Positions 41,314-63,923 of a DNA stretch of 64,000 bases are shown piece by piece (the first letter of the stretch is position 1; each line of letters opens with the position of its first letter). The notes below the pieces were generated by a model that worked only from the letters and a program-made list of their open reading frames with translations, searched no databases and was not told the DNA's origin. Both the position numbers and the translations under genes were made by a program. Location: contig JAIOPP010000029.1 of assembly GCA_021413845.1 (NCBI GenBank), positions 1 to 64,000 on the forward strand, given 5' to 3'. This DNA comes from Planctomycetia bacterium. GTDB lineage: Bacteria; Planctomycetota; Planctomycetia; Pirellulales; PNKZ01.

Positions 41314-41364
41314 GCCATTCGCCTATCGTCGACATGGTCGGCCGATCGCGCGACCGTCGTCGGT

Positions 41365-46922: not shown

Positions 46923-46925
46923 GGG

Positions 46926-47786
46926 CTACTCGAATTGAAAAAGATCTTGAAAATCCGCTGCTCCGTACGGCGCTCCCCCATCCGCATCTTGAATCGCAAC
47001 CCAGTGTTCCCCCTCGGCCGCTTGTTCTTTATAAAAATAGTTCCAGCCCACCTTGTCGCCGCCTGAGCGTTCTTTGGTTTGCTCGGAGAAGTAGTAGTCA
47101 AGCCGCCAGACGCCTCCTTCTTTGAGCATTTGAAATTCACGGACGGCTTTGACTCCCATGAACAGCACGGTGCCTACCGGTGAGCCGAGAAAGGGGCTCG
47201 CATTCACCTTGCCGCGCAGAGCGCGAATCGCCGACCACGGCGGCGCAGGAACTCGCAGCCAAGAAAGTTGCACGCTCCCCGTCGGAATCAAGACTCCGGG
47301 ATTCACATCATCGGGTACCGGTGGATCGTCTTCGCTCGACCATCGCCACACACGGCCCGGCACATGCTGGTATTCGGCTCCTAGCTCGCTTCGATAGACG
47401 AGATAGGTGCCATTGGGTACGCGCGGAAGGTTCTGCAGGCTGTAGCCTTCGCCATCGAACTGTGTCTTGTAAACGGCCGTAACCTTCGCGCCGCTGCGGT
47501 AAGCGTTCGTATCGGTTTGCAAAGAGAACGCCGTTTGCGTGTCGGGAGAATCGGGATCGAAGGGATCGACCGTGATCTCCGCGACGAGGAGATTCTTGAA
47601 GCCGGGAAAAGGGATCGGTTGCACGAACCGCGATGTGCCGCCGATTTCGCCGTAAGTTCCCAGCAGCATTTGTGCAAATGCCTGCCAATCGGACCAGTCG
47701 ACTCGAAACGAGCGAACGGCAGTAGCGCCTTGTTGCGTGATCGCGATGTGCGGCGAGCCGGCGAGTTCTTCATAGACAACCGTCAT
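46926..47786 (-). CDS. Probable phage tail-associated protein
   Basis: This 286-residue beta-rich protein has no membrane segment or signal. It reads FRVDWSDWQAFAQMLLGTYG near the start and LSWLRVPAPPWSAIRALRG near the middle, with an aromatic-rich C-terminus. It lies right after the tail chaperone pair, where siphophages usually have a tape-measure gene; its length and composition are not those of a tape measure (no long helical or coiled region). A distal tail role is a guess. Confidence 0.6.
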   Translation of the reverse strand: MTVVYEELAGSPHIAITQQGATAVRSFRVDWSDWQAFAQMLLGTYGEIGGTSRFVQPIPFPGFKNLLVAEITVDPFDPDSPDTQTAFSLQTDTNAYRSGAKVTAVYKTQFDGEGYSLQNLPRVPNGTYLVYRSELGAEYQHVPGRVWRWSSEDDPPVPDDVNPGVLIPTGSVQLSWLRVPAPPWSAIRALRGKVNASPFLGSPVGTVLFMGVKAVREFQMLKEGGVWRLDYYFSEQTKERSGGDKVGWNYFYKEQAAEGEHWVAIQDADGGAPYGAADFQDLFQFE

Positions 47787-47857
47787 CGACCGTTTCCTAT
47801 TTCGATTAAAAGTGACAAGGACTTCGATCTCGTGCTTTCACCGATTCGGCCTGCGCT

Positions 47858-48307
47858 CTACTCGCTCAATGAAACGCGGCTCGCAGACGTTGCCATCGAT
47901 TGTCGAAGCATTCGCAATTCTTCATGAATTTTCTTAAGCCAATCGGATCCCGGAATCATCGAGCTTTCGGCAGCGTGTTCTCTATCGATGCTGGTTGGCT
48001 GTTCACGCAGTCGGTCGCTCGGCTTCGTCGCCACGATCGCGACCAATCTTTCCCAATCATTCGGCTCGTCTCGGCAACTTATTGCGCTGCTACTCATTTT
48101 GAGTTCTCGATCCACTTCAGCATTACGGCGGTCTCGCGCCGCACCGGCGATCTGTATTGCAATCTCCGGCGAAGCGACAATGCTCGACGGCCGACGATTC
48201 CGAAACTCTAAGAACGTGAGTACCTCGTCGATCGTGAGCTCGAAAATCTCCGCAGGTGTCCAGCCGTAATCGCTGCTCAATCGGTGGCATAAGGCTCCCC
48301 AATCCAT
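47858..48307 (-). CDS. Probable tail assembly chaperone, second of pair
   Basis: The 149-residue protein begins MDWGALCHRLSSDYGWTPAEIFELT and continues IDEVLTFLEF. This pattern resembles the downstream (T-type) tail assembly chaperone of siphophages. Its start overlaps the preceding gene by 31 bp in the -1 frame relation typical of G/GT pairs. I found no canonical slippery heptamer in the overlap, so independent initiation at the ATG (48305-48307) is as likely as frameshifting. The C-terminal half is polar. Confidence 0.6.
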   Translation of the reverse strand: MDWGALCHRLSSDYGWTPAEIFELTIDEVLTFLEFRNRRPSSIVASPEIAIQIAGAARDRRNAEVDRELKMSSSAISCRDEPNDWERLVAIVATKPSDRLREQPTSIDREHAAESSMIPGSDWLKKIHEELRMLRQSMATSASRVSLSE

Positions 48308-48825
48308 TCGGGCTCCACCGGAACCTGTGGCCGGCTTTCGCGGTCGTGGGCCGAAGCACATGGCATCGCGCTTCGGCCCTGAACGTTTCCCAAGTCGAGT
48401 CCCTCTCGCAACCGCATCCCCGTCGCCGCTTCGATCATGCGTAAGAGTTCGCAGCGCTCCGATCCCTCGGCTTCGTAAACTTTGCGCCGGCATCGTTCCG
48501 CCGCAATCAGCGAATGTTCACCGCGTAGACTCAACTCCAGCGCAACGCTTAGTCCTTCGTTTCCCAACAACCAACGGCGCAACTCTTCGACAGTCGGTGC
48601 GACGGCTTGCGATGCTTTTTCGAACGCAAGTTCGAGGAGATGGCGTTGTAATGTTTCCGGCAAGCCGTCAAGGTGAGCTCGAGCTACGACCAGCGGATAG
48701 GGCTTCATCGCCGCGAAACGCCGCTCCAGCTCGATGTAGTCGCGCAAGCTGAAGCGCGAACAACGATGCTCGTGGCCGTCGATCTCGATCGTCATCGTCA
48801 TCGTGATTCGTGTCGAACGGTTCAT
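48277..48825 (-). CDS. Probable tail assembly chaperone, first of pair
   Basis: The 182-residue protein lies between the tail tube gene and the second chaperone candidate, where the G-type chaperone is found in HK97-like phages. It is mixed alpha/beta (TIEIDGHEHRCSRFSLRDYIELERRF) with a helical middle. The ATG at 48823-48825 follows AAGGGA. Assignment rests mainly on position and on the -1 overlap with the next gene. Confidence 0.6.
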   Translation of the reverse strand: MNRSTRITMTMTIEIDGHEHRCSRFSLRDYIELERRFAAMKPYPLVVARAHLDGLPETLQRHLLELAFEKASQAVAPTVEELRRWLLGNEGLSVALELSLRGEHSLIAAERCRRKVYEAEGSERCELLRMIEAATGMRLREGLDLGNVQGRSAMPCASAHDRESRPQVPVEPEWIGEPYATD

Positions 48826-48910
48826 CGCAGTTCCCTTATCACAGTTCCCCTTGTCGCAGCTCGTCGTCGCAGCTCCTCATCGTTGTTTCGAGAGCGCCTA
48901 TGCGAAGAGC

Positions 48911-49297
48911 TCAGCTATAGGTCGGCTTCGTCCAAGCGCCGTCGATGGAGAACTCGGCGATCCCTCCCAAAATGTCCCCTCGGTCGATATCGACCTCCCA
49001 TTGCAGCGCGTCGATCACGGCCGGCACGCTGTAATGTCGCACGTCATCGAGATACAGCAGCAGAGTCACGGCCTGGCCCTCGTTAAGCCGATTTGTAATC
49101 GGATCGTCGACGTCGAGCTTGAAGGCAATCGTTCCGCTGCCGTCTTTCACTCCCGCCACGCGACGTCGAAAGCCGGCCGTCGAAGAACTGGCGTAGGCGA
49201 CATTGTTGGAAGTCGTACGCAAAGTCCATTTGGTTACGTCGGCGATCGTCGCCACGCCGATCATCACCTTGCCGTCTTTACCGCTCATTACCGACAT
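48911..49297 (-). CDS. Phage major tail tube protein
   Basis: The 128-residue product reads SGKDGKVMIGVATIADVTKW, then SSTAGFRRRVAGVKDGSGTIAFKLDVDDP and a C-terminal beta-rich part. The size, beta-barrel character and Gly-rich start fit tail-tube proteins of siphophages. The ATG has AGAGGAGA upstream. Position between the completion/closure genes and the chaperones supports the call. Confidence 0.7.
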   Translation of the reverse strand: MSVMSGKDGKVMIGVATIADVTKWTLRTTSNNVAYASSSTAGFRRRVAGVKDGSGTIAFKLDVDDPITNRLNEGQAVTLLLYLDDVRHYSVPAVIDALQWEVDIDRGDILGGIAEFSIDGAWTKPTYS

Positions 49298-49353
49298 AGC
49301 GTTCTCCTCTTGGAATATCTCGATCGATCAAGGCGACGTGCCGGTTGCAACCG

Positions 49354-49869
49354 TTACGACGATGTCCCCACGATGACGATGCGATAAGTGGCGGAGCCGG
49401 AGCCGGAGTTTAAGATCCGCAATACATCCGTCGTCCCCACGCCGACGCTCCAGCCCGCTTGTTTATTGATCAACAAGAGCGAAGAATCGGCAGCCAACGT
49501 CGCTCGAGCCGTCGCCGTGTTGAAAGGGCCGAGCCAAGTGTGCGAGGCGGCGTTGCCGACCGTCAGCTCTGCCCCTGCGTCCGTCGTCTTGCAGACGATC
49601 AACAGCGCTTTGACTTTGGCAAGCGCGACTTGCACGGAGTTGCCGAACACCGAACTAGCAAGCGCCGACAAAACAAGATCGTCCGCAGCACCGGCAGCCA
49701 GCGTCCGCTCGTCGTGCCAGATTCGATCTGCCTGGCCGCTGCCGACGCCGTTTGCCAAGCCGGCGGTATATTCCAACTTCGAGACGTCCGTGATCGTCGA
49801 AAGTTCAAGCGCGTCTTGCAAAAGCCATGTGAGCGAGGCTCTCAGATCGGTCGAAAGGGCCGAAGCCAT
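49354..49869 (-). CDS. Phage virion-associated hypothetical protein
   Basis: The 171-residue protein has an Ala/Leu-rich first half (VLSALASSVFGNSVQVALAKVKAL) and ends in a beta part with VGVGTTDVLRILNSGSGSATY. There is no signal peptide. A strong TAGGAGA site precedes the ATG at 49867-49869. No named family recognised; location between tail completion and tail tube suggests a structural role. Confidence 0.65.
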   Translation of the reverse strand: MASALSTDLRASLTWLLQDALELSTITDVSKLEYTAGLANGVGSGQADRIWHDERTLAAGAADDLVLSALASSVFGNSVQVALAKVKALLIVCKTTDAGAELTVGNAASHTWLGPFNTATARATLAADSSLLLINKQAGWSVGVGTTDVLRILNSGSGSATYRIVIVGTSS

Positions 49870-49879: not shown

Positions 49880-50272
49880 CTAAGATCGACAAAGCGTAAC
49901 GTCGTAATGAAGTTCCCGGCGAACAGTCCCTTTTGAATCCGATTTCCACACCTCTTCGCCGCGGCGCATCGCGACCACTCGCCCCTCGCCGGCATCGAAG
50001 TCGGCCGAGTCGAATCGATCGGCGATCGCCGCGGCGATCGTGGTTGCAGAGCCGTAACTCGACATTTCCGCTACGAATACGATTTCTACGACGTCCGCGG
50101 ACAAGCCGCTCGACGCACGTAGCAGCGGTTTATTCTTACGCCGCTCGACGACCACGTATGGCCGCTTCGTATCGGCGGGCACGAAGCTCGTATACACGCG
50201 CTCGAGCGGCACCGATGTCGTCAGCGCGACATCGCTTTCCCAGCGTTGTTGAATCGCCTCTTCGAGCGTCAT
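49880..50272 (-). CDS. Phage tail completion/terminator-like protein
   Basis: The 130-residue protein begins MTLEEAIQQRWESDVALTTSVPLERVY, the pattern of DUF3168/HK97 gp10-type tail-terminator proteins, and continues with a beta-rich core. Its ATG overlaps the previous gene's stop (ATGA, 50269-50272), so it is coupled to the head-closure gene. Such proteins cap the tail tube at the neck. Confidence 0.65.
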   Translation of the reverse strand: MTLEEAIQQRWESDVALTTSVPLERVYTSFVPADTKRPYVVVERRKNKPLLRASSGLSADVVEIVFVAEMSSYGSATTIAAAIADRFDSADFDAGEGRVVAMRRGEEVWKSDSKGTVRRELHYDVTLCRS

Positions 50273-50907
50273 GGCACCAGCTCCAAAAGTAAGATCGTTC
50301 CACGATCCAAACGCTCCGCATCGTCGACTCCGCGAATCTCGTACAGCGCATCGTCGTGACGAATCCGCATGTCGGCGACGAACTCGATCGCATCGGCAAG
50401 AAAACAGCGATGCGTCGTTCGCATCGTCGGAGGTGCGGCTTGATCGTCTCGGCGTTGTGCCGCCGGTTGGATTCGTGCGGCAAGTCCACGACGGACTTCG
50501 ATCCAATTCGCAACCGGCACGCCCGACGCGGTCTTCGTCCAGCTTGCTCGTAGAATCGAGACGCGATCATTGAGCTCGGCGGCTACCTCCCACGCTCGCG
50601 CGGTACATCGCCAGCGTGAACCGAGCGTTTCGTGATTCGCTTCGAGGATCGTCCACGTTCGACCTTCCCCGTCCGTGATCGTCGATCCCAACACCGGACA
50701 AGCGGGCACCTCGGAAGTCGGGAAGTGCCAGCGAACATCCCCTGCTAAGTATTTTCCGCGCGAGGCCTCGATCTCTCGCAAAGTCACGGCTCGATGGAGT
50801 CCGGCCGTTGTTTGCTCTCCCGATCTAGGCCTCGGCTCACGGATCACGACGCTCTCCGCCCCGTCAAACACGGCGAAATCGTTGCTTAAGTCCAAGCTCG
50901 AACTCAT
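50269..50907 (-). CDS. Phage head closure protein with extra N-terminal domain
   Basis: The 212-residue protein has a C-terminal half (DRVSILRASWTKTASG, ADMRIRHDDALYEIRGVDD) resembling head-closure/head-tail connectors of HK97/SPP1 type. The N-terminal half (PVLGSTITDGEGRTWTILEA) has a similar strand pattern, so it may be a duplicated connector-like domain; single-domain members are near 110 residues. The ATG follows GAGGAGG. It joins capsid to tail. Confidence 0.65.
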   Translation of the reverse strand: MSSSLDLSNDFAVFDGAESVVIREPRPRSGEQTTAGLHRAVTLREIEASRGKYLAGDVRWHFPTSEVPACPVLGSTITDGEGRTWTILEANHETLGSRWRCTARAWEVAAELNDRVSILRASWTKTASGVPVANWIEVRRGLAARIQPAAQRRDDQAAPPTMRTTHRCFLADAIEFVADMRIRHDDALYEIRGVDDAERLDRGTILLLELVP

Positions 50908-50909: not shown

Positions 50910-51125
50910 CTAAGTTCCTCCTCGCGTCGCAAACTCGAACGGTTCCGCATCGTTTAATTTGGCGTCGCACCAATCCAACGTCGTTTGAATTCGCGCCAAA
51001 TATGCTTCCCACGACACGCTCTGTCCGTCGATCGAATAGCTCGGCTTTGGGCTCAGCGTCACATCGAGCAACAGTTGTCGCGTTTGGTCGCGAATCAAAC
51101 GGAGCGTCGTCAGATCGTCGGACAT
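50910..51125 (-). CDS. Small phage-cluster protein
   Basis: The 71-residue protein (MSDDLTTLRLIRDQTRQLLL start) is helical with no recognised family. A strong GGAGG site precedes the ATG. It ends 2 bp before the head-closure start, in the operon just downstream of the major capsid gene, where small head-completion proteins are often encoded. Confidence 0.65.
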   Translation of the reverse strand: MSDDLTTLRLIRDQTRQLLLDVTLSPKPSYSIDGQSVSWEAYLARIQTTLDWCDAKLNDAEPFEFATRGGT

Positions 51126-51264: not shown

Positions 51265-52419
51265 TTATTCGTCGAAGCTCTTCACGACGCAGCGTGGGTT
51301 CAGCACCGCAGCCGCACCACGTTCGCTGGCTTTGAATCGAACGACGATGTCGTTGTTGAATTCCGCATCGCTGTTCGGAGCCGATTGCGTGACGGTGATC
51401 GGCCAGTTCTCCATGTAGGCGAAGGCCTTCTTGAAATCGCCGAGGAACCACCACTTCTTGGCATCTTCCGCCGCGGTGCCCGCCGCAATAATCCGGCGAT
51501 ACGCCAAGCGGCTATCGGCGACGCGGTACTTGCTCAGCGGATTGGCGACGCGCGTGGTCGTGGCCTCGGTGCTGTAATCGATCTCGGCTGCGTTAAATAC
51601 GCGATGTGCCGCATGCCGATATGCCGGCATCACGAGCACCGTGTCGGCGGTTACGAGGACCGGTTCGCCCGTATGTGGATCGAGAATGTCCGCAAAGAGG
51701 TTTTCGGCGGCATCGACGTTGCGCCAATCGACGAGCTCGTTCGCCGATTTGACGTTCACCCAAGATCCGGAGGTGAGATAGGTCGAATAGTTCGTGCCGC
51801 GCCATTTGTAGTTGTTCGTTGCACCGATCAAGATATCGATGAGCCGCTTCTCCTTGTTCAACCCGAGAATCTCGCCGACTTCCGCCGCACGACTCAACAC
51901 CAAGTTCGTCCGATCGAAGAAGATCGCTTCGCGCGTCACCGGCACGATCAGGCCGTGCTTCGTCGTCGAGGGAGTTTCGATATAGTCTTCGCCGAAGCCG
52001 ACGTTCGGATAAGGCATGCCCGGACGAATCGCATCGGCGCCATCGGCCGGAACCGTCACGCCGGGAATCTTCTCCCCATCGAGGCGCGTCGGAATCGTAT
52101 CGACGAGCTTCGAGACGACGAAGGCTTCTTGCGTATAGGCCTCCATGATCTTCGAGTAGACGACTTGCCCTGCGATATTGAGAAAGGCGGTAACGTCGAC
52201 TCCTTGGCCCGATTCAAGAATGTTCACTCCGCCCGAGGCGCGAGGGTCGAGCAACCGAACCCATTCATGACCGTCGGGCACCAGTCCTTCGGCCAAGTCG
52301 CGAAGACTAAAATCCTCGGGCCGCAGTTTCTTCTCGCGCAACGCTTCGGATAGATGCTCGACCGTCTTTTGCGCTCCATCGAGTTCGTAGCGCCGCTTCA
52401 ATTCACGGTATTTGATCAT
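51265..52419 (-). CDS. Phage major capsid protein
   Basis: The 384-residue protein follows the decoration protein and precedes the connector genes, the position of a major capsid protein. Sequence features fit: a helical N-terminal arm (to residue 50), then a mixed alpha/beta body with ETPSTTKHGLIVPVTREAIFFDRT and, later, VLVMPAYRHAAHRVFNA. No protease cleavage site was assigned. Strength rests on size, position and internal pattern. Confidence 0.8.
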   Translation of the reverse strand: MIKYRELKRRYELDGAQKTVEHLSEALREKKLRPEDFSLRDLAEGLVPDGHEWVRLLDPRASGGVNILESGQGVDVTAFLNIAGQVVYSKIMEAYTQEAFVVSKLVDTIPTRLDGEKIPGVTVPADGADAIRPGMPYPNVGFGEDYIETPSTTKHGLIVPVTREAIFFDRTNLVLSRAAEVGEILGLNKEKRLIDILIGATNNYKWRGTNYSTYLTSGSWVNVKSANELVDWRNVDAAENLFADILDPHTGEPVLVTADTVLVMPAYRHAAHRVFNAAEIDYSTEATTTRVANPLSKYRVADSRLAYRRIIAAGTAAEDAKKWWFLGDFKKAFAYMENWPITVTQSAPNSDAEFNNDIVVRFKASERGAAAVLNPRCVVKSFDE

Positions 52420-52476: not shown

Positions 52477-52956
52477 CTACGACGTGATCGCCGATTGCAC
52501 GCCGCCGTACATCACGGTGCTGACGATATCCACCAGCACTTTTACGTCGGCCGGATTGACGCGTCGCGCACAACGCCCGATCGCCAAATGGGCTCCCGCT
52601 ACGCCGTCGATACGTTGATTTTCCAAAACGGTTCCGGAAGCGGCTTCGTCGACGCCGAGCAACGCCCCCACTTCGCGTGTGCCGGACGGAGTGACGAATT
52701 CGAAGACGCCGGTCGTCGCTACGCGAATCGGATCGGTGTCGCCCGATCGCGACCGTTGCATCGCCACGCCGGCGAACTTCGTGTGAAACAACGCTTGGTT
52801 CGCGCTTTCGGTACTTTGGTCGGCCTGCGATGCGGCCGGCTTCGCATCGTCGGTGTCGAGATACACCAAGTCGCCGATCTCGATCACGGTCGCCGAGTCG
52901 ACCGGAAGAACCACGGGATTCGTTTCGCCGTACCGCCATCGCATGACATCTGCCAT
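52477..52956 (-). CDS. Phage capsid decoration protein
   Basis: The 159-residue protein has a beta-rich pattern with IEIGDLVYLDTDD, FAGVAMQRSRSGDTDPIRVATTG and GALLGVDEAASGTVL, resembling DUF2190-type or decoration proteins encoded beside major capsid genes. The ATG follows GGAG. It lies 57 bp before the capsid gene in the same operon. Confidence 0.7.
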   Translation of the reverse strand: MADVMRWRYGETNPVVLPVDSATVIEIGDLVYLDTDDAKPAASQADQSTESANQALFHTKFAGVAMQRSRSGDTDPIRVATTGVFEFVTPSGTREVGALLGVDEAASGTVLENQRIDGVAGAHLAIGRCARRVNPADVKVLVDIVSTVMYGGVQSAITS

Positions 52957-53025: not shown

Positions 53026-53811
53026 TTAAGTCTTGTGCGAAATCGCCTTCACGAACGAGTCGGCGTCTTCGATCGGTCGATGTCGTCCGTGAGTGCTTTG
53101 ATCGACGGAATGTTGATCGCGAGCGCGAATCCTCGGTTGAGCAGCGTCGGCTTCTTCGCGAACCGGCGACGTACGCAGATTGGCGATCTCCGCTTTAAGC
53201 CGCAGAATCTCCGCTCGCTCCTCGGCAACGTTTTGCTCAAGCAAATCCGGTCGCGCTGCCCGGAGTTGTTCGAGCGTTACGCGAGTCCAGTCGGCTTCAC
53301 GAGCCTGAACCGCATCGATCTCCGCAACTTGCTCGTAGAGACCATGCGTCGAGGCGGGATCGGCCACGAGGTCGACGCTGACGACACGTGTGATCGCTTC
53401 GACGACCACTTGTTCGTCACGTCGCGACGTACGGGCCATGACGTTGTGCGAGAGCCCGACGTTCTCCGGAGCATGCCGAGCGTCCCATTCCAACTGCCCG
53501 GCCATGCCGTGTCGCGGGTTGAAATGTAAGTCGCCATATAAGCCGGAGTCACCGACTACGCTCACGTTGCGGATCAATCCGATCCGGTCTTGATAGTCGC
53601 GTGGGCCGAGCGGGCTTCCTTTCGGGTGATTCACATTCACCTTAGCCCCTTCGTACAGCTCGCGAGCTCGAACCAACGTATCGTGAGGATACGACCGCCC
53701 GTTACGCGACTCAGACCCGAGGATTTTCACCCCGCGAATAACGCCTGCTTCGCGATCGACGGACAGTGCCGCACCTCGACTATCCGCATACTCCAACAAA
53801 GTCTCTTCCAT
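53026..53811 (-). CDS. Probable prohead protease with C-terminal scaffold-like segment
   Basis: The 261-residue protein has GVKILGSESRNGRSYPHDTL, VNVNHPKG (His62), DRIGLIRNVSV, GLSHNVMA (Ser121) and SVDLVADPAS, a pattern resembling T4-type prohead proteases, which use a His/Ser pair. A charged helical stretch at residues 190-225 (AEERAEILRLKAEIANLR) may act as scaffold. It is first in the capsid module, right after a terminator hairpin. The ATG at 53809-53811 follows AAAGGAAA. Confidence 0.65.
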   Translation of the reverse strand: MEETLLEYADSRGAALSVDREAGVIRGVKILGSESRNGRSYPHDTLVRARELYEGAKVNVNHPKGSPLGPRDYQDRIGLIRNVSVVGDSGLYGDLHFNPRHGMAGQLEWDARHAPENVGLSHNVMARTSRRDEQVVVEAITRVVSVDLVADPASTHGLYEQVAEIDAVQAREADWTRVTLEQLRAARPDLLEQNVAEERAEILRLKAEIANLRTSPVREEADAAQPRIRARDQHSVDQSTHGRHRPIEDADSFVKAISHKT

Positions 53812-53841
53812 TTCGATTTCCTTTCGTCGACAAACGAAAAA

Positions 53842-53880: not shown

Positions 53881-53913
53881 CGCGTGATACCGGTAAAGGC
53901 TCAGTAAGATACC

Positions 53914-54235: not shown

Positions 54236-55648
54236 TTACACATCCGCGTCATTCGGCGCTGCCGATTGTCGCCGTGTGTGGTCGCGCAAATTCGTCTGTT
54301 CCTGATCGTAGTCGAGCCCGCTGAGCAAACACCACGTTTGCGGAGATAGAATACCGTGCTTGTATTCGACGGCTCGCACATCGGCCTCACTTTTGACGTC
54401 GCGCATGGCGAGCGAAGGGGGCTCAATCTGAATCTCGACTAGGTTCAATGTCTCGGAAGGAAGCCGTCCTGCGCCGATCGCATTCCGCACGACGCGGCGC
54501 AATACTTCTCGATCGTCGCCAATTTGTTCCGCCTGTAATCGCTCGAACATCCGTAATGCAGGAGATTCGGCGACGAACGTCGAAGCGTAGTTCGCATTCG
54601 AGGCATCGGACGACAACATGAACTCCGGCATCACCAACCTAGCCGCGATGGCCCGCAACTCTGCTTGCAAGATCGCGACATAGCTCGAAGCATCGAGCGC
54701 CGATGCCGGAAAGTCGTAATCGACATTCCCATAGGTGTCGAGAATCGTGCCGGGCGCGAAGCGGCGCATCGTCGTAGGACGAGCGCTGCCGGAAGCAGTC
54801 ACCGAATCCGGCTGAGCCGCCACATATTGCTGCACCGCAGTTCGGGTAGCCGTCCGATGTTTCCGAATCAAGGCGATCGCGGATTGAATCTCCGCCACGG
54901 TGCTCATGTTGCGCAACAGCTTCTCGGCTCGTCGCAAATTCTTTCGCACGGGATAATAGAGCGGCAACCCTCGCTTGACGTTTGCATCGACGTTCGACTT
55001 GCGATGCTGAATCTCATCGGCATCGACCGGCACGCCGTCGATATAGTAGGCGTGGACCGTTTCGACATCGTCATGATCCGTGGCGATGCCGTAGGAAAGG
55101 GACGGATCGCGAACCGCTTCCGCCGGGGCATAGACTTGGCCGGGCTCCACGAAGCGCACGAAGGTCATCCCTCCGGAGCCGACGAAATAGCGCAAGAATG
55201 ATTCGCCGTCGCGATCGTTTCGCAACACGATTTCTTGCTGTCGTCGATGCCATCGATTGACGCGCACGAACTCGTCCAGCAAACTCTGCACGTCGGCTAC
55301 CAACTCGGGCGGCGTGCTGCGATGCTTTTTTCCGGTCGCACGGTAAGTGTGCCCGCTGCCGACGATGTAACTTACGCGGTTTTCATGCCCGTTGACCGCG
55401 AACTCGTTCGACAGCGCCAGCGCGCGACACTCGTTGCGTATCGCCGCCAGTTGATGTTCGTCGGCGAAGCCCGGCATTACGCTACCCGCAGGCCCCCCCT
55501 TCGCACCGAGCATCATCCAGGCAGCACCGTCGCCGTCGTCGAATAGCGGCTCGTTGCGATCGACGACGCCCGACCAAAGATCATCGAATGCCTCGGCGAG
55601 TCGCTGCTCGAATCCTGCCGAATAGGAAGCTTTGTTGGAAGTCGTCAT
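54236..55648 (-). CDS. Phage portal protein
   Basis: The 470-residue protein fits portals encoded next to large terminases. It has an early VSYIVGSGHTYRATGK, a stem/wing region FVRFVEPGQVYAPAEAVRD, and the VMPEFMLSSDASNANYAST element followed by a long C-terminal helix (LRMFERLQAEQIGDD). It forms the dodecameric DNA gate. The ATG follows GGAGA; it starts 81 bp after the terminase stop. Confidence 0.85.
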   Translation of the reverse strand: MTTSNKASYSAGFEQRLAEAFDDLWSGVVDRNEPLFDDGDGAAWMMLGAKGGPAGSVMPGFADEHQLAAIRNECRALALSNEFAVNGHENRVSYIVGSGHTYRATGKKHRSTPPELVADVQSLLDEFVRVNRWHRRQQEIVLRNDRDGESFLRYFVGSGGMTFVRFVEPGQVYAPAEAVRDPSLSYGIATDHDDVETVHAYYIDGVPVDADEIQHRKSNVDANVKRGLPLYYPVRKNLRRAEKLLRNMSTVAEIQSAIALIRKHRTATRTAVQQYVAAQPDSVTASGSARPTTMRRFAPGTILDTYGNVDYDFPASALDASSYVAILQAELRAIAARLVMPEFMLSSDASNANYASTFVAESPALRMFERLQAEQIGDDREVLRRVVRNAIGAGRLPSETLNLVEIQIEPPSLAMRDVKSEADVRAVEYKHGILSPQTWCLLSGLDYDQEQTNLRDHTRRQSAAPNDADV

Positions 55649-55729: not shown

Positions 55730-57340
55730 TCATGCCGGTTTCGATTCGTGATCTACCAACGATTCTTGCGCCAGCCGCAAGGCCATCTCCAGCGCGTCGG
55801 GCCCATCGTCGTGGTCACCACAAGGAAAATCGCGAAGCTGATCGACGAGCAATCGTGTGCCTGAGGAGTTACTGCGAAATGCGAGACGTCGTTGTGCGAG
55901 CAAGGGAGATAAGCGACGAATCCGTACCCTTTTCGGCGCGGTATTCGAAATGCTCCAAGGTGCGAAGTCGTATCGTCCTTGTCGTTGCGCCTCGCGCACC
56001 AATTCGTCTCCCAACAATTCCTGAAAATGATTCGCTTCGACTCCGAATGCGTCGGGCCCGAACTGCGCATGCCACGTGCAACTATCGGCGACCATCTGTG
56101 GTATCGGGCGGCGGGCGAGATCGGCCTCGACGAAGACGCGGCCCATCGGATCGATGCCTAGCATGACGATCGCGGAGTAATCGCCATGGCGGGCGTCGGC
56201 CCCTTTGCTGGGGTCGAGCGCCATCGTCCTGACGATAAGGTTCTCGGGCCAATCGTCGAACCAGAAATCGTCGTGGAGGAAATAATCTTCCGGCCACTCG
56301 CAAAGTTCAGGATTGATCGGCGACCCCTGCTTTTCACGCTCAAACGCCGTCTTGCCGCTTTCGATGCGCATGCACATCAGCGCGTAGAGATCTTCTTCCT
56401 CCGCCCACAGCAACTCGGCCCCGGCATCCATTGCCGTGCGGTGTGCTTCGTAAAAACATTGGGCCTTGCCGCGAGCGTCGGCATCGCCGATCTCGGAATA
56501 AAGTTTTTCCCAGCGATCCCATAGGTCCATCGCATCGGGCCAGCGCAACACCGCCGGGAAGATTTGCGAGATCCAGCCCGGCGTGCGATGCAGCTGCATT
56601 GCCAACGCATCGCGATGCAGAGCGGTCGCGAGATTCAGCACGTTGGTTCTGCGAGTGCCGGCCTTGAGTAATGTGCCGTGAAACCAACGAGTCGACAGTT
56701 CTCTCTGTCGTGCCGACTCGATGTGCGAGTCGTTCTGAAGATCGTCGCAGATAATGAGCGTCGGGCGATGTTCGCCGCGCCGTCGCCCTCGCATACGCAC
56801 GCCCGTGCCGAACGCTTCGACGACCGTGCCGTTGCGTAGCTCGATGAAATTAGAACGCCATATCGGGCCACGTCCGCAAGCTTGGGAGTAGTCCGAGGCG
56901 AGTTTCGAATTGTCGGTCAGTTCTTTTTTGACGTTCTCCAAATGATTAGCCGCTTGGTTTCGAGTGTCGGAGACGATCCAAACATAAGGCTCGCGCTCCG
57001 TGACGATCGAACGCAACACCCACGCCAGCGTGCCGACCGTTGATTTCGCTCCGCCGCGGGGGCCGATCACATTCAACTTCACGCCGCGCGTCCGCTCGGC
57101 TTCCGCCAAGCGTGTCGTCAAGGTTCGATGCATGATCGACGGCTCGCGTGTGAAGTAGTGCGGCAAGTAGCGACGTCCCCAAGCCAAGAGATCGAGCGTC
57201 GTCGAATCTTCGACGGCCATATCGTCGGGCTTCAACAGATCGACGGCGCAAGCAATGACGCCGAGCAACTTCGATGCGCCGGCCAACTCGAGTCCGGCTA
57301 GATCGAGCGTCGTGCTTTCTAAATGACGCCGCCTGGTCAT
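55730..57340 (-). CDS. Phage terminase large subunit
   Basis: The 536-residue protein has an ATPase with Walker A GPRGGAKST at 93-101 and Walker B LIICDDLQND near 195. A C-terminal RNase H-like nuclease has acidic motifs MALDPSKGADA and DDGPDALEMALRL. It powers DNA packaging into proheads. Its start overlaps the preceding gene by 4 bp (ATGA), giving translational coupling with the small subunit. The sequence is close to other planctomycete prophage terminases in layout. Confidence 0.9.
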   Translation of the reverse strand: MTRRRHLESTTLDLAGLELAGASKLLGVIACAVDLLKPDDMAVEDSTTLDLLAWGRRYLPHYFTREPSIMHRTLTTRLAEAERTRGVKLNVIGPRGGAKSTVGTLAWVLRSIVTEREPYVWIVSDTRNQAANHLENVKKELTDNSKLASDYSQACGRGPIWRSNFIELRNGTVVEAFGTGVRMRGRRRGEHRPTLIICDDLQNDSHIESARQRELSTRWFHGTLLKAGTRRTNVLNLATALHRDALAMQLHRTPGWISQIFPAVLRWPDAMDLWDRWEKLYSEIGDADARGKAQCFYEAHRTAMDAGAELLWAEEEDLYALMCMRIESGKTAFEREKQGSPINPELCEWPEDYFLHDDFWFDDWPENLIVRTMALDPSKGADARHGDYSAIVMLGIDPMGRVFVEADLARRPIPQMVADSCTWHAQFGPDAFGVEANHFQELLGDELVREAQRQGRYDFAPWSISNTAPKRVRIRRLSPLLAQRRLAFRSNSSGTRLLVDQLRDFPCGDHDDGPDALEMALRLAQESLVDHESKPA

Positions 57341-57846
57341 CGACCTTGTTCTCCGGCGGCATCGCCGCTCAGCGACTCCGTCAGCCGTAGCAAGTGCGCG
57401 CCGACCTTTAGTCGATCGTTTCGATTACTGATGCCGCGGCACAGTATTTCGGCAAACTGATTCAACACGATTCCGACCTGCTCGCGGGTCATCGTTGCGG
57501 CGCGGCGTGCCGCGTAGCGATCTGGATAACGCCGTTCCAGCAACCAAGCAGCCGCCTTCCAGCCGTTCTTTTCGCCCGCCGCTTCCTGAATCTTTCGAAC
57601 TAACGTGAGCTCTCGTTCCGCTTCGGCTTTTCGTAATGCATCGGCAAACGCGGGATCGCGCCGCGCAGTGGTAGCGATCGCGTTCATCGAACAGCCGACA
57701 TAAGCGGCCGCGCGACTCCGCATACACCCGATCCTGACGATCGCGCAAATCTCCTCCTTCTTTCGGGCATCTAATTTGGGCGAGATCCTGCTTGCCCGTT
57801 TCGTGGGAACCGGAAGCGGCGTGTCGTCGTCGGAGCGAGTGTTCAT
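57337..57846 (-). CDS. Phage terminase small subunit-like
   Basis: The 169-residue protein has an N-terminal helix-turn-helix (GCMRSRAAAYVGCSMNAIAT, about residues 40-60) followed by helices with EAERELTLVRKIQEAAGE and KAAAWLLERRYPDRYAAR. This is the pattern of small terminases/phage HTH proteins that recognise packaging DNA. It is coupled by ATGA overlaps to genes on both sides. Confidence 0.75.
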   Translation of the reverse strand: MNTRSDDDTPLPVPTKRASRISPKLDARKKEEICAIVRIGCMRSRAAAYVGCSMNAIATTARRDPAFADALRKAEAERELTLVRKIQEAAGEKNGWKAAAWLLERRYPDRYAARRAATMTREQVGIVLNQFAEILCRGISNRNDRLKVGAHLLRLTESLSGDAAGEQGR

Positions 57847-58973
57847 AGCATGGTCCTTTCTTCCGACAGCAACTCAAACGACGCTACGGCGCGACCGGCG
57901 GCACCACGATAGTTGCTCGTCGCACGATCGTTTCTGCGAGTTCCGCAGCGCACGATCCGATTCAAGCGCCAGCGCGGCGACCGGCGGCAATGCGTCAAGA
58001 GTGAGGGATGGGCCGTCGTGATGCCGAATCGTTTGCCGTCGGCCAAATAGAGATCGCCGACCGCTTCGGCAAGCCGAGTGCCGATCCCCAGGCCTTGATA
58101 GTCGGGCAGGGTTACCAGTCGAGTGATTCGCCAACGACCGCGCGTCGCAAACATCGGCAGCACGGCACACAACGCCGTCGGCACTCCGTTCCAAAAAGCC
58201 GCGTAGCATCGAGCACCCCAACTCAGTCGGCCGTTCAAATAGTGATGACGCGCAAACAATCGCCAAGCTTCCAAGGGACAGCGTCGGACTTCGAGACGGA
58301 TCGCCGGTCGCCGAAGACGCCTCCGATGGAGCGTGCCCGTTGCCATGTCGAGCGTCCAATCCGGTTCGAGCCAAGGCTCGACGTCGTAGTGACACGTCAC
58401 GGCAATGAATCGACAAGCGACCTGACTCGATCGAATCGCTTTGACGATGGCGGCCGAGCCGAATTGGGCCGCATTGCGATCGACCAGGCTCGTGAATTCG
58501 TCGAACACTACCAGCGGGCGACTCTTCGAATCTTCGGAGATGTTCGAGTCTGTGGAGGAATGACGACCCACGGCCAAAGCGCGTGCCAAGTCGCAACGAA
58601 ACTTCTCGCCGCCGCTGAGGACGTCGTACGGCTTGATCCAAGAGGGAGGCGATCCGAATCCGACGGCGGTCAACAGGCCGGTGGCTTGCTTGATCGGCAA
58701 TGCATCGAAAAAGTCGATCACCGCTCGGTCGCGGGGCCAATCGCCGTTTTTATAGAGTTCGGCTGGGAATCGATGGCGCGCGATCGTGCTCTTGCCGGAG
58801 CCCGACGGTCCTACGATGAGACCGATGTCCCACTCCTCGCCTTCATCTGGTAGTTCGACGTCGAAGCGTTCCGAAAGCTTTTCTGCGAGCGGCACGTCGA
58901 ACATCCCGGCGACTTGCTCGACGCGAAACGACCGGCGTATCGGGCAACTGACATCTACGGCAACTCGCACCAT
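57843..58973 (-). CDS. ABC-type ATPase fused to GNAT acyltransferase
   Basis: The 376-residue protein has an ABC-ATPase domain with Walker A GPSGSGKST (55-63), signature LSGGEKFR (119-126), Walker B LVVFDEFTS (154-162) and an H-loop TCHYD. It is followed by a GNAT domain with RHHYLNGRLSWGARCYAA and an acyl-CoA loop TLPDYQGLGIGTRLAEA. There are no membrane helices, so it is not a transporter. Related ABC-GNAT fusions occur in phage and bacterial genomes; a role in DNA modification or packaging control is a hypothesis. It is coupled to the small terminase gene (ATGA) and lies after the ParB-like gene. Confidence 0.85.
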   Translation of the reverse strand: MVRVAVDVSCPIRRSFRVEQVAGMFDVPLAEKLSERFDVELPDEGEEWDIGLIVGPSGSGKSTIARHRFPAELYKNGDWPRDRAVIDFFDALPIKQATGLLTAVGFGSPPSWIKPYDVLSGGEKFRCDLARALAVGRHSSTDSNISEDSKSRPLVVFDEFTSLVDRNAAQFGSAAIVKAIRSSQVACRFIAVTCHYDVEPWLEPDWTLDMATGTLHRRRLRRPAIRLEVRRCPLEAWRLFARHHYLNGRLSWGARCYAAFWNGVPTALCAVLPMFATRGRWRITRLVTLPDYQGLGIGTRLAEAVGDLYLADGKRFGITTAHPSLLTHCRRSPRWRLNRIVRCGTRRNDRATSNYRGAAGRAVASFELLSEERTML

Positions 58974-59030: not shown

Positions 59031-59621
59031 TTACAACGTCAGGACACGGCACTTACGACCTTCTTGTGAAAGTCGTTCGTAAACCAAGCGTTGTTCCGTC
59101 TCATCTGCGCATTCGACCAACACCTGGAATGAATCACGCAGCTCGAGCGACGTCCGTGCCGTAACCTCGGTCGTCGCGTTACGATCGGGGGAATCGAGTT
59201 CCAAGCGTAGCGATTGAGATTCCCTAAGAACTTCGTCGAGCATGTCGGAGACGGCTTCGTTTCGGATCTCGATCGTCGAGAGAATGTCGCGCAGCACGTC
59301 AGCATCGGTCTCGGCCATCGCCGCCAAGGGATCATGAACCGCGAGCAAAAGTTCCGCCTCGGCCGCGGAAAGATCGACGACGAGCACAGGTACTTCGGTA
59401 TCAGGGAGCGTCGAGACGCGCAAATGGCCGTCGATCAACTCCAGTCGCCCGTCTTCGCACTCGCGTGCTATGAGAGCTCCCGCGAATCCGATCTCGTCGA
59501 GCACGCCGCGCAAGGCCGCTTGTTGTGCGTCGGGATGCTTGCGCCAGTTGCGCGGGTTCGAGCGTAGTTCGCTCGCGCGGACTCGCCGCAATTCACGCAC
59601 TCGGTCTCGGATCGGTGGCAT
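59031..59621 (-). CDS. ParB-like nuclease-domain protein
   Basis: The 196-residue protein has an N-terminal ParB/Srx-type fold: LRSNPRNWRKHPDAQQAALR, GFAGALIARE, LELIDGHLRVSTLPD and VPVLVVDLS. The C-terminal half is helical and acidic without the ParB HTH, so plasmid partition is unlikely; phage-borne relatives often accompany DNA-modification genes. The ATG at 59619-59621 has GAGG upstream; a TTG 15 bp earlier is possible. It lies 57 bp before the ABC-GNAT gene. Confidence 0.8.
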   Translation of the reverse strand: MPPIRDRVRELRRVRASELRSNPRNWRKHPDAQQAALRGVLDEIGFAGALIARECEDGRLELIDGHLRVSTLPDTEVPVLVVDLSAAEAELLLAVHDPLAAMAETDADVLRDILSTIEIRNEAVSDMLDEVLRESQSLRLELDSPDRNATTEVTARTSLELRDSFQVLVECADETEQRLVYERLSQEGRKCRVLTL

Positions 59622-59724
59622 GCATACGCCTCGCAATAAATGTTTCTAGTTCGTTAAAAACCAAGTTGGGCCGAGAATCGACTCGGCCCAACTTGCCGAT
59701 TGCTCGTTGCCGTCTGCGCGTCGG

Positions 59725-60060
59725 CTAACGGCAATGCACGTTCCGAACGACGACTCGCGACGAGCGAAGCACTTGAACTCGCTGACGCACCACCTGTTGT
59801 TGCACGATCACCGGAGTGGCGAATGCCTGAACCGCAAATGTTTGCACGGCGATCGGTTGCGCAACTACCGACTGCACGGCGACGAACTGGGGCTGCGCCG
59901 TCACGACGAACGGCGAAACCACGGCTGTCGGTACGGCGGCGAATCCGACCGAAGCTTGCGACACGACCAGTTGCGGATTGCAAGCCCGCAACTCATTCCC
60001 GGAGATCGCAAAAACACCCAACGCACAACACAGCAGCGAACAAAGCCGAATGAACCGCAT
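59725..60060 (-). CDS. Small secreted Val/Gln-rich protein
   Basis: The 111-residue protein has a signal peptide (FIRLCSLLCCALGVFAISG, cleavage near the ELRACNPQ segment). The rest is low-complexity, rich in Val, Gln and Ala (VAVQSVVAQPIAVQTFAVQ), ending basic (VVRQRVQVLRSSRVVV). The very strong CAGGAGGTG site fixes the ATG at 60058-60060. Function unknown; it follows two exported heme proteins in the operon. Confidence 0.75.
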   Translation of the reverse strand: MRFIRLCSLLCCALGVFAISGNELRACNPQLVVSQASVGFAAVPTAVVSPFVVTAQPQFVAVQSVVAQPIAVQTFAVQAFATPVIVQQQVVRQRVQVLRSSRVVVRNVHCR

Positions 60061-60110
60061 GATCGAACACCTCCTGAAGTAGACTTCTCGATCGACACCT
60101 TGGAATCGTT

Positions 60111-60629
60111 TCAATAACTCAGCCGCTTCGGCAACTTGGCCCAGCGGCGGATCAACTCTTGCTCTTCGCTCGTCAATCGCACGCGCGCGCCCGGAGGCAT
60201 TGCGGGAAGCTTTCCTTCGGCGCTCGTCGTTTGCTCGAGAACGAGATGGCGTGGAAGTTTTTCGAGCAAGCGACTATCGACATCGAACAACGACAAATCA
60301 CCTTGGGCTAACGAACCTCGATGGCATTCGATGCAATGTTGCCGAAGGATGGTGGTGACTTCCGATCGAAGTGTATCTTCGGTGATCGCCGGTCGTGCGC
60401 TCGATGGGCTGGCCGCAGATGCCGTTTGCGGTGCGTACGTTCCCATGCCGTAAAAGAGGGTCGGTCGTTGTACGACGGCGACCGGCACAGCTACGGGAAT
60501 CGCAAACGGCGCAATCACGAGCCCAGTCGAAGAATTCGCGTTCGTTTCCGAAGCCGTTGCGATGTGCCGAACGAATATCGCGGCGATGGCGACCAGCGCG
60601 ATTTTCACAAGCGGTTGTTTTCGAATCAT
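60111..60629 (-). CDS. Exported planctomycete-type cytochrome c domain protein
   Basis: The 172-residue protein has a signal peptide (KIALVAIAAIFVRHIATASE), a Val/Pro-rich linker, and a C-terminal cytochrome c domain with heme-binding CIECH at 99-103 and probable axial Met144 in KLPAMPPG. The RLTSEEQELIRRWAKL end is typical of planctomycete cytochrome domains. A GGAAGGA site precedes the ATG at 60627-60629. A cytochrome inside a phage operon is unusual. Confidence 0.82.
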   Translation of the reverse strand: MIRKQPLVKIALVAIAAIFVRHIATASETNANSSTGLVIAPFAIPVAVPVAVVQRPTLFYGMGTYAPQTASAASPSSARPAITEDTLRSEVTTILRQHCIECHRGSLAQGDLSLFDVDSRLLEKLPRHLVLEQTTSAEGKLPAMPPGARVRLTSEEQELIRRWAKLPKRLSY

Positions 60630-60679
60630 CGTTGAAATTCCTTCCGATAGAGCGTTCGGTCTTGAGGCGGTTTTCTTTG

Positions 60680-62113
60680 TTAACGTCGCGTTTCTTTCAC
60701 CAGTAACGCACCCTCGCCGAAACTCGCTTCCCATTGTTTTCGCGAGACGCCGATACCGGCCGCAATCGCGAGCAAAATAGGATCGTGCGAGACACGAAAC
60801 GCAGCCACGACGGTATCCTTGGAAACTCCCAATTCCAGCGCCGCGCTCGATGCGTCGAGCAACTCGTCTTGAAACGCACGTACGATCCTGGCGAGTCCGG
60901 CCGACACGGCGATCGGCGTCATTCCGCCGGTCGCCGCAGCGGTCGCCGTCGCCAAGTCTTCACGATCGCGCGTCAACTTCTTTTCCAAATCGCTGAGATA
61001 GAACGATGCCAGGCGCTGTGCGTCTTTCGGGCGTTCGACGAATAGTTCGACGCCGGCATCGAGTAGCCGCCGCTGATCGTTCACGATGGGGCGTAGGCCT
61101 CCTTCGATATGACAGCGAACGCATGAAATCATCGGCACGACGATTCCCGAGCCGTGTCCGTCGCTCGAGTCTTTCGCAATGACGTCGGGCACCGCCGCTT
61201 GGCGCTTGCCTTGCGCATCGAACAATGCATAGAGATGCAATCCGTTTCGCTTGGCAACGATATGTTCTCCGGCATCGTAAACGAATGAAAAAGGATTGCG
61301 AATCGGATCTCTTTCCGGCGTCGCTGCGGCAGTGTCGTAAGTATGCCACGCACCGCCGAGCGGACCTTGACGACGCACGATTCGCCGCGGCTTGAAGGTG
61401 ACGAGCGAGCGAATGACGTTGGCCCCTTCGTCGGCTTTCAGACGATCGATCTGTTCGATATCGAGACCGAGGGACTTGAAGAACGTCGCTTCGTCGTCGG
61501 CGATGCCGGCCAACTCGTAATAGACGCCATCGTCGAGCGTCGTGGTTGCCTTAACGAGAAAATAGTCGCCTCGCAAAACGGCACCGCCGCTTTGCGATAG
61601 CTCGCGCAGACGCGCAGCCGAATGAAGATCGATCCAACCGCCGTCGGTAAACACGGTCTTAACGACCGGTGCGATCGACTTCGCCTCGTTTGCTTTTCGT
61701 ACGGTCGAGGTGGTTTCGATCGATATCGGTGGAACGACTTGGCTGCGCAAATGCCAATAGGGATCGTGCGAAGCGAGGAATTCCCAAACCTCGGCGGGCA
61801 ATCCATAGTCGGCAAGCGAGATGCGCCACAGGCGATGCTCCGTATCCGGCACCGCCACGGGCCGCACGAGAACATCGACACGGCTCACGCTATTGAGCAC
61901 GAACGACGCGACGTTCGCCGCTTCCGATCGCTCCTCGATCGGAAAGTTGTAAAATGATAGATAGCGAACATACGGTCGTTGCTCATCAACGACACGCGTT
62001 TCAAGATCATGCACGGCCGCTTCCAATTCGCTTGCCGGTCCTGAAAACGACGGTAGCGCTGCGGCGATCATCAGCATCCATCCACTCACTGGTCGTTCCT
62101 TTTTGCGCATCAT
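60680..62113 (-). CDS. Exported CxxCH (c-type heme) protein of unknown function
   Basis: The 477-residue protein has a signal peptide (GWMLMIAAALPSFSGPASE) and one heme-binding-type motif, CVRCH at 331-335 in PMISCVRCHIEGGLRPI. No other family features were recognised. The N-terminal part (RYLSFYNFPIEERSEAAN) resembles exported planctomycete proteins. It lies between a subtilisin and the cytochrome c gene in one operon. Tandem ATGs at 62108-62113 with a weak ribosome-binding site. Confidence 0.75.
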   Translation of the reverse strand: MMRKKERPVSGWMLMIAAALPSFSGPASELEAAVHDLETRVVDEQRPYVRYLSFYNFPIEERSEAANVASFVLNSVSRVDVLVRPVAVPDTEHRLWRISLADYGLPAEVWEFLASHDPYWHLRSQVVPPISIETTSTVRKANEAKSIAPVVKTVFTDGGWIDLHSAARLRELSQSGGAVLRGDYFLVKATTTLDDGVYYELAGIADDEATFFKSLGLDIEQIDRLKADEGANVIRSLVTFKPRRIVRRQGPLGGAWHTYDTAAATPERDPIRNPFSFVYDAGEHIVAKRNGLHLYALFDAQGKRQAAVPDVIAKDSSDGHGSGIVVPMISCVRCHIEGGLRPIVNDQRRLLDAGVELFVERPKDAQRLASFYLSDLEKKLTRDREDLATATAAATGGMTPIAVSAGLARIVRAFQDELLDASSAALELGVSKDTVVAAFRVSHDPILLAIAAGIGVSRKQWEASFGEGALLVKETRR

Positions 62114-62149: not shown

Positions 62150-63217
62150 TTACGCATCGCGAGGTACGAACACAAGCGTGCCGAGGCGACCGTTGATCGA
62201 GAGAGGCCCTAGCTCGAAACGCTCGTTATTCGGTCCATCGACCACCGGGCTCGGCATCGGCGCGATCGTCGTCGGCGTGTCTTGCAAAACGGCATCGGGA
62301 TCGATCAGCCCGAACCCGTAAGCAGGATCACGCCCTTGCGGACCGGCATCGATCGCCGTTCGCTGGAGATGCTCGATCAATTGCGCCGGAGTTTCGACGG
62401 GAGTCGTACCGCCGTATGCGCGATGCTTCGCCAACAGCAATGCGACGACGCCGCTCACGAAGGGCGTCGCCATGCTTGTGCCCGAAAGCTTGGCGTAACC
62501 GCCGCGCAAGTAAGTCGACAGCACGTCTTGGCCCGGTGCGCAGAGATCGACCTCGTCGCCTCGGCTGGAAAAATCGCAAATGCGTCCGTCGCGGTCGACG
62601 GCCCCGACGGCCACGGTGTCGTCGAACTTTGCCGGGTAGTTCACCGAATTCAGGCGACCGTCGTTGCCCGCGGCACAGACGATGAATTTGCCCGCTGCGA
62701 CGGCGCGGCGTACGGCGTCTTCGATCGCGGAACTCGCCACGGGTGAACCGAGGCTCATCGAGATCACATCGGCTCCCGCTTGAGCCGCCCAATCGATGCC
62801 CGCGGCGACGACGTCGTCGCTGCCGCTACCGTCGTCGCCGAGAACTTTGCCGATCAGCAGACGACATTCCGGAGCGACACCGATCACTCCAACATCGTTG
62901 CGCCGCGCTCCGATCGTGCCGGCCGTGTGCGTACCATGGCCGACTCGATCTTCCGCCCCGAAACGGCTGCCGGTAAAATCGCGCACTTCATCGACCGCGC
63001 CGCGCAAATCCGGATGGGTTAGTTCGAGGCCTGTATCGAGCACGGCCACACGGACATCGCGACCGGCCGTTTCGCGCCAATGGTCGGGCACATGGTACAT
63101 CGCCAATCCCCAGTCGATCGTCTCCGACAGCTGCGTATAGGCCGCCGTTACGCGAAACGGGGGCAATCGGTAACGAATCGGTCGTTCGAGTCCTCGATCG
63201 CGACGGCGCACGCTCAT
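62150..63217 (-). CDS. Subtilisin-like serine protease (S8) without signal peptide
   Basis: The 355-residue protein has the S8 catalytic triad: Asp61 (VAVLDTGLE), His94 (GHGTHTAGTIG) and Ser248 (SGTSMATPFVSG). The short N-terminal part has no signal peptide and no clear inhibitory propeptide, so it may act inside the cell or in the particle. Its ATG overlaps the previous gene's stop (ATGA, 63214-63217). A much longer open frame upstream is Arg/Ser-rich and not coding. In a phage operon, maturation or lysis-related proteolysis is possible. Confidence 0.88.
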   Translation of the reverse strand: MSVRRRDRGLERPIRYRLPPFRVTAAYTQLSETIDWGLAMYHVPDHWRETAGRDVRVAVLDTGLELTHPDLRGAVDEVRDFTGSRFGAEDRVGHGTHTAGTIGARRNDVGVIGVAPECRLLIGKVLGDDGSGSDDVVAAGIDWAAQAGADVISMSLGSPVASSAIEDAVRRAVAAGKFIVCAAGNDGRLNSVNYPAKFDDTVAVGAVDRDGRICDFSSRGDEVDLCAPGQDVLSTYLRGGYAKLSGTSMATPFVSGVVALLLAKHRAYGGTTPVETPAQLIEHLQRTAIDAGPQGRDPAYGFGLIDPDAVLQDTPTTIAPMPSPVVDGPNNERFELGPLSINGRLGTLVFVPRDA

Positions 63218-63603
63218 AGCGCACCTCGAATCTGTCGCACGATACGAATGAGTTCGACGACGATCGGCAACCAATCGATGTAGCTTTGCCGATCGATCGA
63301 TTGCGTGAGAATCGCACGGTCGCCTGCATCTCGGCTCGTCCGATGAAGCACGTAATGCACGATCGCCAACACGACTTGCACGAGATCGTCGTCGGTCAAG
63401 ATGGTGTTCAAGCGTTCGACCCAAGCGTCGTCGATGCCGAACAATCCGCCGAGCCGAACGACGAGTGCGATCAGCTTGCGAAATTGCTCCGGCGAGTCGA
63501 GCGGCGCATCGAGATCGCGCACCGCCGCAAGAAGTTCTAAGACGTCGCGCAGTCGGCCGAGTCGTTCCCAAGCGAGGCCGCGTACGACAAGCGGAAGAGA
63601 CAT
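63214..63603 (-). CDS. Hypothetical protein in subtilisin operon
   Basis: The 129-residue protein is helical and Leu/Val-rich (LALVVRLGGLFGIDDAWVERL-like pattern IALVVRLGGLFGIDD) with no recognised family or signal peptide. Its stop overlaps the subtilisin start by 4 bp, so it could be a partner, inhibitor or chaperone. The ATG at 63601-63603 follows AAAGGAA. Confidence 0.65.
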   Translation of the reverse strand: MSLPLVVRGLAWERLGRLRDVLELLAAVRDLDAPLDSPEQFRKLIALVVRLGGLFGIDDAWVERLNTILTDDDLVQVVLAIVHYVLHRTSRDAGDRAILTQSIDRQSYIDWLPIVVELIRIVRQIRGAL

Positions 63604-63662: not shown

Positions 63663-63923
63663 TCAGGGAATACGGCGCGAAAGTTCGCCCAGCGCCTCGA
63701 TGACGAGGCCGTGATCGGCATGCTGCTGACGTCGCTCGGCGGCCAGCTCCGCGTAGAGCAACTCGCGCTCGAAGCCGCACTCGGCACGCATCGCGGCCAT
63801 CTCGTCGCGAAACGCGCTGACGAGGTTGGGAATCGTATGACAAGCCGTGTGCCACGCGTACCAACCGAGAACCGCAGTCGCGGTTAAGGAACTGAATTCG
63901 TGAATCGCGGGTACTTCCGGCAT
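63663..63923 (-). CDS. Small possible membrane protein, first gene of module
   Basis: The 86-residue protein has one moderately hydrophobic stretch (LTATAVLGWYAWHTACHTI, residues 13-31) followed by a charged helix likely to form a coiled coil (RDEMAAMRAECGFERELLYA). Holin-like or other membrane function is possible but not supported by family resemblance. AAAGGAA precedes the ATG at 63921-63923. Confidence 0.55.
   Translation of the reverse strand: MPEVPAIHEFSSLTATAVLGWYAWHTACHTIPNLVSAFRDEMAAMRAECGFERELLYAELAAERRQQHADHGLVIEALGELSRRIP

Follow-up and report, generated by a model that had tools for sequence, protein, structure and literature searches.

We analysed a window of 64,000 nucleotides, corresponding to bases 1-64000 of a 98,613-base contig in a genome of 7.1 Mb. 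In terms of gene matches, the closest named genome is a “Pirellula sp.” MAG, with other relatives labelled Planctomycetota or Pirellulales. Genes were called with our own codon-score script, which may have missed or mis-started some small genes. Along the direction of transcription the order is m86, D129, a subtilisin, three genes termed here A, B and C, a ParB-like gene, an ABC-GNAT fusion, the small (TerS) and large (TerL) terminase subunits and the portal. Beyond the portal come a small gene, a protease-region gene, a decoration-position gene, the major capsid gene, a gpW-size gene, neck genes and distal genes. All cassette and packaging genes are on the minus strand.

Protein A (60680..62113) is an exported c-type heme protein of 477 aminoacids, with an N-terminal signal-like segment, no Pfam family and a CVRCH motif at residues 331-335. 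Protein B (60111..60629), also exported, has 172 aminoacids counted from its ATG, a 207-aminoacid ORF being a longer reading in the same frame. It combines a V/P-rich N-terminal stretch (FAIPVAVPVAV) with a C-terminal small cytochrome c, where CIECH is found at 99-103 and a distal MPPG at 144. Protein C (59725..60060) is an exported Val/Gln-rich protein of 111 aminoacids, with a signal-like N-terminus and a basic C-terminus. Its mature form contains 28% Val, 15% Gln and no acidic residues, and counterparts come after B in other genomes and in a 55-kb phage described below. The export signals of A, B and C were judged by composition, all three having signal-like N-termini.

Upstream of A lies a subtilisin-like protease of family S8 (62150..63217; 355 aminoacids from an ATG start; Pfam PF00082, E=2e-59). 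The motifs of its Asp/His/Ser triad are all there (DTGL, HGTHTAG and SGTSMATP), with neither a hydrophobic N-terminus nor a signal peptide. Its gene overlaps by 4 bp with that of D129 (63214..63603), a conserved hydrophobic helical protein with a lookalike, identified by eye, at the equivalent place in jumbo phages. One pair of D129 sequences has a dN/dS of 0.49, compared with 0.06-0.30 for nearly all other genes tested. The first gene, m86 (63663..63923), encodes a small protein with one hydrophobic segment, as in the small membrane proteins of other families, followed by a charged helix; it has no Pfam match and is holin-like by shape only.

The genes of this cassette are tightly packed, with spacing between m86 and C ranging from -4 to 59 bp. 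The gaps are 36 bp between subtilisin and A, 50 bp between A and B, 50 bp between B and C, and 103 bp between C and ParB. The initial annotation had described two exported CxxCH genes and a Val/Gln-rich secreted protein placed on one strand between a subtilisin and the ParB/ABC-GNAT/terminase genes. This layout is real.

Between C and ParB, on the same strand, we found an intrinsic-terminator-like hairpin (59662..59695), 14 bp long and GC-rich, followed by GTTTTT. Because this hairpin and T-run separate them, A-B-C and the packaging genes may belong to separate transcripts. Conservation of a hairpin at the C/ParB junction was considered and dropped: a few relatives have long hairpins, but random pieces yield weaker ones just as often (132/240). 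Within the cluster, a 17-bp hairpin with a T-run at 53841-53881, between the portal-side and capsid genes, forms another site resembling a terminator or attenuator.

As for the packaging and head genes, the ParB-like protein (59031..59621) is followed by the ABC-ATPase/GNAT fusion (57843..58973; phrog_11143, E=2e-93), the small terminase subunit (57337..57846; phrog_4102), the large terminase subunit (55730..57340; phrog_38, E=3e-69) and a portal protein of the lambda family (54236..55648; PF05136). The position of the GNAT acetyltransferase fusion between ParB and the small terminase is conserved. Next, after the 53841-53881 hairpin, there is a probable head maturation protease/scaffold region protein (53026..53811, weak PHROG match), a small protein assigned to the head-decoration position by gene order (52477..52956), and the major capsid protein (51265..52419), assigned from its size, its place in the gene order and the fact that it is conserved between families. 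A 71-aminoacid head-completion protein, gpW-like by size and order (50910..51125), precedes two neck genes, g15 and a tail-terminator-like protein (49880..50907; phrog_347, weak). The conserved distal genes g18 (phrog_22694), tail-tube-like g19, g20 and g21 (46299..49821) are present in the family of the window and several others, and absent from family f7.

In several families, proteins that look LamG-like by eye (concanavalin-like) are found between the capsid and gpW-like genes (L117:15569-16675, L121:15657-16484, L127:17073-18014). It is possible that these are capsid decorations.

The packaging cluster is found with the same gene order in many Pirellulales families, and the full colinear cluster from m86 to capsid in several. 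In many families its chromosomal site is one and the same. An upstream flank of TPR9, MoaB and EEP (an exported nuclease) is common to several families, and a downstream HTH22/Exo24 flank to some. Strong matches to a TerL profile were obtained in 77/147 Pirellulales genomes, with two copies in only 2 of them; outside Pirellulales, the matches were weaker. The TerL tree recovers families f1, f18, f19 and f7, as rpoB does, with the same two subclades in f7, and TerL relatives from free viruses fall mostly outside its main group. Inside families, the phylogeny of the element agrees with that of the hosts. Distances correlate with those of rpoB for both TerL (Mantel r 0.43) and portal (0.61), with 0/2000 permutations in each case. 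TerL, portal, MCP and ABC-GNAT have dN/dS values of 0.06-0.26, pointing to purifying selection. Our gene calls between the EEP and HTH22 flanks of the window include no integrase or replication gene.

Judged by these sequences, the packaging cluster looks like a domesticated element with a GTA-like head, not an ordinary prophage. With GTAs (domesticated prophages of the RcGTA type) it shares vertical, mostly single-copy inheritance under purifying selection, head and packaging genes, a tree congruent with host families and a stretch where, among the called genes, neither integrase nor replication gene was seen. Unlike GTAs, it has its own lambda-type terminase/portal lineage, one family (f7) has no tail gene at the locus, and a slot ahead of ParB carries protease/heme or protease/papain-like genes. 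The “phage operon” of the initial annotation needs amending: m86 and D129 belong to it as well, a hairpin precedes ParB, and the element is vertically inherited instead of being an ordinary prophage.

In family f7 the element is head-only. At L116-L118 (G029, G160 and G164, from complete or near-complete genomes) it runs from ParB to gpW/g15 and gives way to host genes, stopping after the neck genes with no tail genes at the locus. A few genomes have two copies or a second partial head cluster, at L105 (G009) and L126 (G018), and in G009 only one copy carries subtilisin-A-B. Many short “viral” contigs of IMG/VR (L136-L153) resemble fragments of the chromosomal element, which is therefore probably counted as virus in public collections.

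In terms of its distribution, A was found in 25/147 Pirellulales genomes at a threshold of E<=1e-60. TerL is present in 22 of these 25 genomes, against 56 of the 122 without A (Fisher p=7e-5 with one split TerL hit counted, p=4e-4 with that hit left out). On contigs that are long enough, most loci have A and TerL no more than about 6 kb apart. Exceptions are G021, with A, B and ParB and no TerL, G048, with ABC-GNAT only, and G015, where subtilisin-A-B is next to host genes. In the TerL phylogeny, the A-carrying terminases do not group into a single clade (8 changes, with deep forks not resolved), and the presence of A tracks the rpoB tree, with 4 changes versus 10.3 when shuffled (a quick tree).

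Families f3, f7, f13 and f17 keep terminase and head genes while A and B are missing, hence heme is not needed for packaging. In these families the slot between EEP and ParB holds a papain/NlpC-like protein (our own reading, without Pfam hit), an exported Trypsin_2 protease, a 225-285-aminoacid protein and a small membrane protein. The slot ahead of ParB is variable, yet a protease is repeatedly there. The suggestion that heme genes always accompany the same terminase lineage is thus half right: nearly all carriers of A have a terminase, but these four families have the terminase without A.

Furthermore, the cassette is present in free viruses and in another order. Using A as bait, we reached the 595-kb uncultured phage LR756511, where A (CIVCH) and B (CAQCH...RMPP) directly follow a papain-like protease and a D129-like gene. 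This row recurs on a 341-kb IMG/VR contig, close to a head-tail adaptor gene. On a 55-kb IMG/VR contig, DNA polymerase, primase and ThyX genes lie upstream of a papain-like protease, which is followed by A, B, a C-like secreted protein and a membrane protein; ParB, TerS and TerL come next. In a Gemmata-like prophage, from a second order, a matrixin protease, A, B and C lie downstream of tail genes including the tape measure. Two further genomes have matrixin-A, one of them also with B and C. Gene calls at the G224 locus are unreliable. By Pfam, the proteases beside A belong to three classes, S8, C1 and M10 (subtilisin, papain and matrixin). Since the terminases differ, phrog_38 in the window and phrog_979 in the 55-kb phage, distinct virus lineages have the cassette in common. 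The row protease-A-B(-C) looks like virus machinery, not a stray bacterial gene.

The initial proposal that exported c-type heme proteins form part of a phage gene cluster therefore holds, with a terminase in 22 of the 25 A-carrying genomes and protease-A-B in unrelated free viruses. An alternative had been that homologues occur mostly outside phage clusters; this is not so for close relatives, but it is for distant fused paralogues. That host cytochrome genes merely adjoin a phage cluster by chance is hardly credible, even with those paralogues being ordinary host genes and a terminator-like hairpin at the junction, given a linkage conserved across families, the A-TerL co-occurrence (p=7e-5) and the recurrence of protease-A-B, in that order, in four viruses or prophages.

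We then considered what A and B may be. CxxCH is kept without change by 12/12 relatives of A and 8/8 relatives of B, at identities of 20-68%, and the motif of A is also invariant across a set spanning viral and host members. Values of dN/dS are 0.065-0.30 for A and 0.10-0.15 for B. Searches with A found no usable match in Pfam or PHROG, and profile A1 found none among PDB sequences.

The predicted structures of A have a mean pLDDT of 76.6 at full length and 84.7 for the domain model. With VIA-align, the best 8 rows for the A domain (residues about 202-350) are all cytochrome c'-beta or P460, with Z between 5.1 and 6.5, and the next unrelated row is at 4.4. The alignments cover 101-106 residues at 9-15% identity, with Z <8, which can reflect a common arrangement. 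We take a cytochrome c'-beta/P460-like fold of the predicted heme domain as a good lead and not as proof, because Z is below 8 and Foldseek, with either full A or the A domain against PDB and a viral library, reported no significant fold. What A would share with this superfamily, across eight structures, is a predicted beta-sheet heme domain ending in CxxCH. On the contrary, it has no sequence-level match to it, and its domain sits in a 477-aminoacid protein with helical N- and C-terminal parts. The heme of A probably has an open coordination site.

By its motifs, B is a small class I cytochrome c of the His/Met type. CxxCH and the distal Met-Pro are kept in 13/13 B sequences, and Cytochrome_CBB3 matches the B set in 8/8 cases (best E 8e-8), with B of the window itself below the cut-off.

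Host paralogues of about 580-700 aminoacids contain a PSCyt1 domain (PF07635) and then an A-like domain, with CxxCH in both. These fusions have the same two CxxCH domains as A and B, but they are host-located and form one protein, whereas A and B are encoded by separate genes within a cluster of viral derivation. The sequences suggest that A and B may act together, and we infer an exported electron-transfer pair from the fact that host proteins join both domains in a single chain. The distant fused paralogues are ordinary and widespread host proteins, so the A and B domains probably came from hosts long ago.

Among the described phage modules that we know of or found, none matches the protease-A-B-C cassette, which, as read from its sequences, would be novel for this reason even though its single domains are of known kinds. 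To our knowledge, c-type cytochromes, which require export and the maturation system of the host, have not been recognised in phage particles, lysis or defence. No description of a Pirellulales GTA or of a phage protease/cytochrome cassette was found in the open-access subset of the literature, which is weak evidence of absence. The novelty would lie in the cassette, the element alone being a further kind of domesticated prophage. As a head-packaging system domesticated in Planctomycetota, the element would have no description in the open-access papers searched, and with it simple deletions can test how genes are transferred and viruses released in this phylum. Found alike in a 595-kb phage, a 55-kb phage, a prophage and an order-wide domesticated element, the protease-heme order indicates a viral function that has been overlooked.

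The explanation we favour, with confidence about evenly balanced, is that the three exported genes belong to a virus-derived protease+A+B(+C) cassette, here in the variable slot immediately upstream of a domesticated GTA-like head and packaging element. Our best guess at its function, more tentative and somewhat less likely than not, is lysis or egress: protease and exported heme pair would work together on the envelope at a late stage of particle formation. A published account of the planctomycete wall calls it “a protein sacculus with disulfide bonds” (PMC2754498). The protease, without signal peptide, would be released via the small m86-like membrane protein in the fashion of an endolysin and would disrupt the layer of disulfide-rich protein in this envelope. 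The secreted A-B heme pair and the Val-rich C would adjust or monitor the redox state of that layer.

By analogy, a protease that is swapped in class while constant in position resembles endolysins. With the lysis cassettes of phages (holin/endolysin/spanin), the genes here share a small membrane protein, a class-swapped hydrolase lacking a signal peptide and exported accessory proteins. In contrast, the hydrolases are proteases only, not peptidoglycan hydrolases. We know of no c-type cytochromes in lysis cassettes. Peptidoglycan is now known in most planctomycetes too, which weakens the argument from a protein wall. Also counting against egress are the 14-bp terminator-like hairpin that splits the cassette from ParB, the retention of the cassette without linked head genes in G021 and G015, and the families f3, f7, f13 and f17, where head genes are kept without A or B.

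Cytochromes c'-beta and P460 bind NO or oxidise hydroxylamine. Given the resemblance of the A domain to both, the His/Met cytochrome c in B and the widespread fused host paralogues, periplasmic redox or NO chemistry would be another role, rather unlikely in our judgement. A would bind or oxidise NO, hydroxylamine or peroxide and B would pass electrons, an auxiliary function by which the viruses and the element would protect or tune host respiration, with the protease an unrelated neighbour. However, one of three protease classes stands beside A in nearly all sufficiently complete loci, and a plain redox role leaves that unexplained. Redox signalling, one of the roles proposed in the initial annotation, would be a further candidate.

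The export of A, B and C, the slot varying between families and the Val-rich, basic composition of C, similar to a fibre or adhesin, would also suit surface exclusion or remodelling, in which the exported proteins would modify the surface of the host so that other phages are kept out or adhesion is altered. We consider this improbable: no receptor or lipoprotein homology was found, and proteases without signal peptides fit poorly. Delivery of the protease and/or heme proteins as particle cargo would agree with the linkage of the cassette to head genes and with subtilisin and papain-like proteases lacking signal peptides. It is very improbable, as the N-termini of A, B and C are signal-like and the attachment of c-type heme takes place beyond the cytoplasm, away from the site of head assembly.

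Extending the lysis/egress explanation to its widest form, planctomycete viruses would carry an undescribed protease-cytochrome module that attacks or rewires the disulfide-rich protein envelope of the host by coupling proteolysis to heme redox chemistry. From one such virus, a large part of a bacterial order would have domesticated the head, packaging and envelope-release genes as a vertically inherited particle-forming system. We regard this as speculative and, in full, unlikely.

Lastly, a host RND efflux operon is located downstream of the element (34637-42624), with an HlyD-like adaptor and two half-size and one full AcrB-type ORF.
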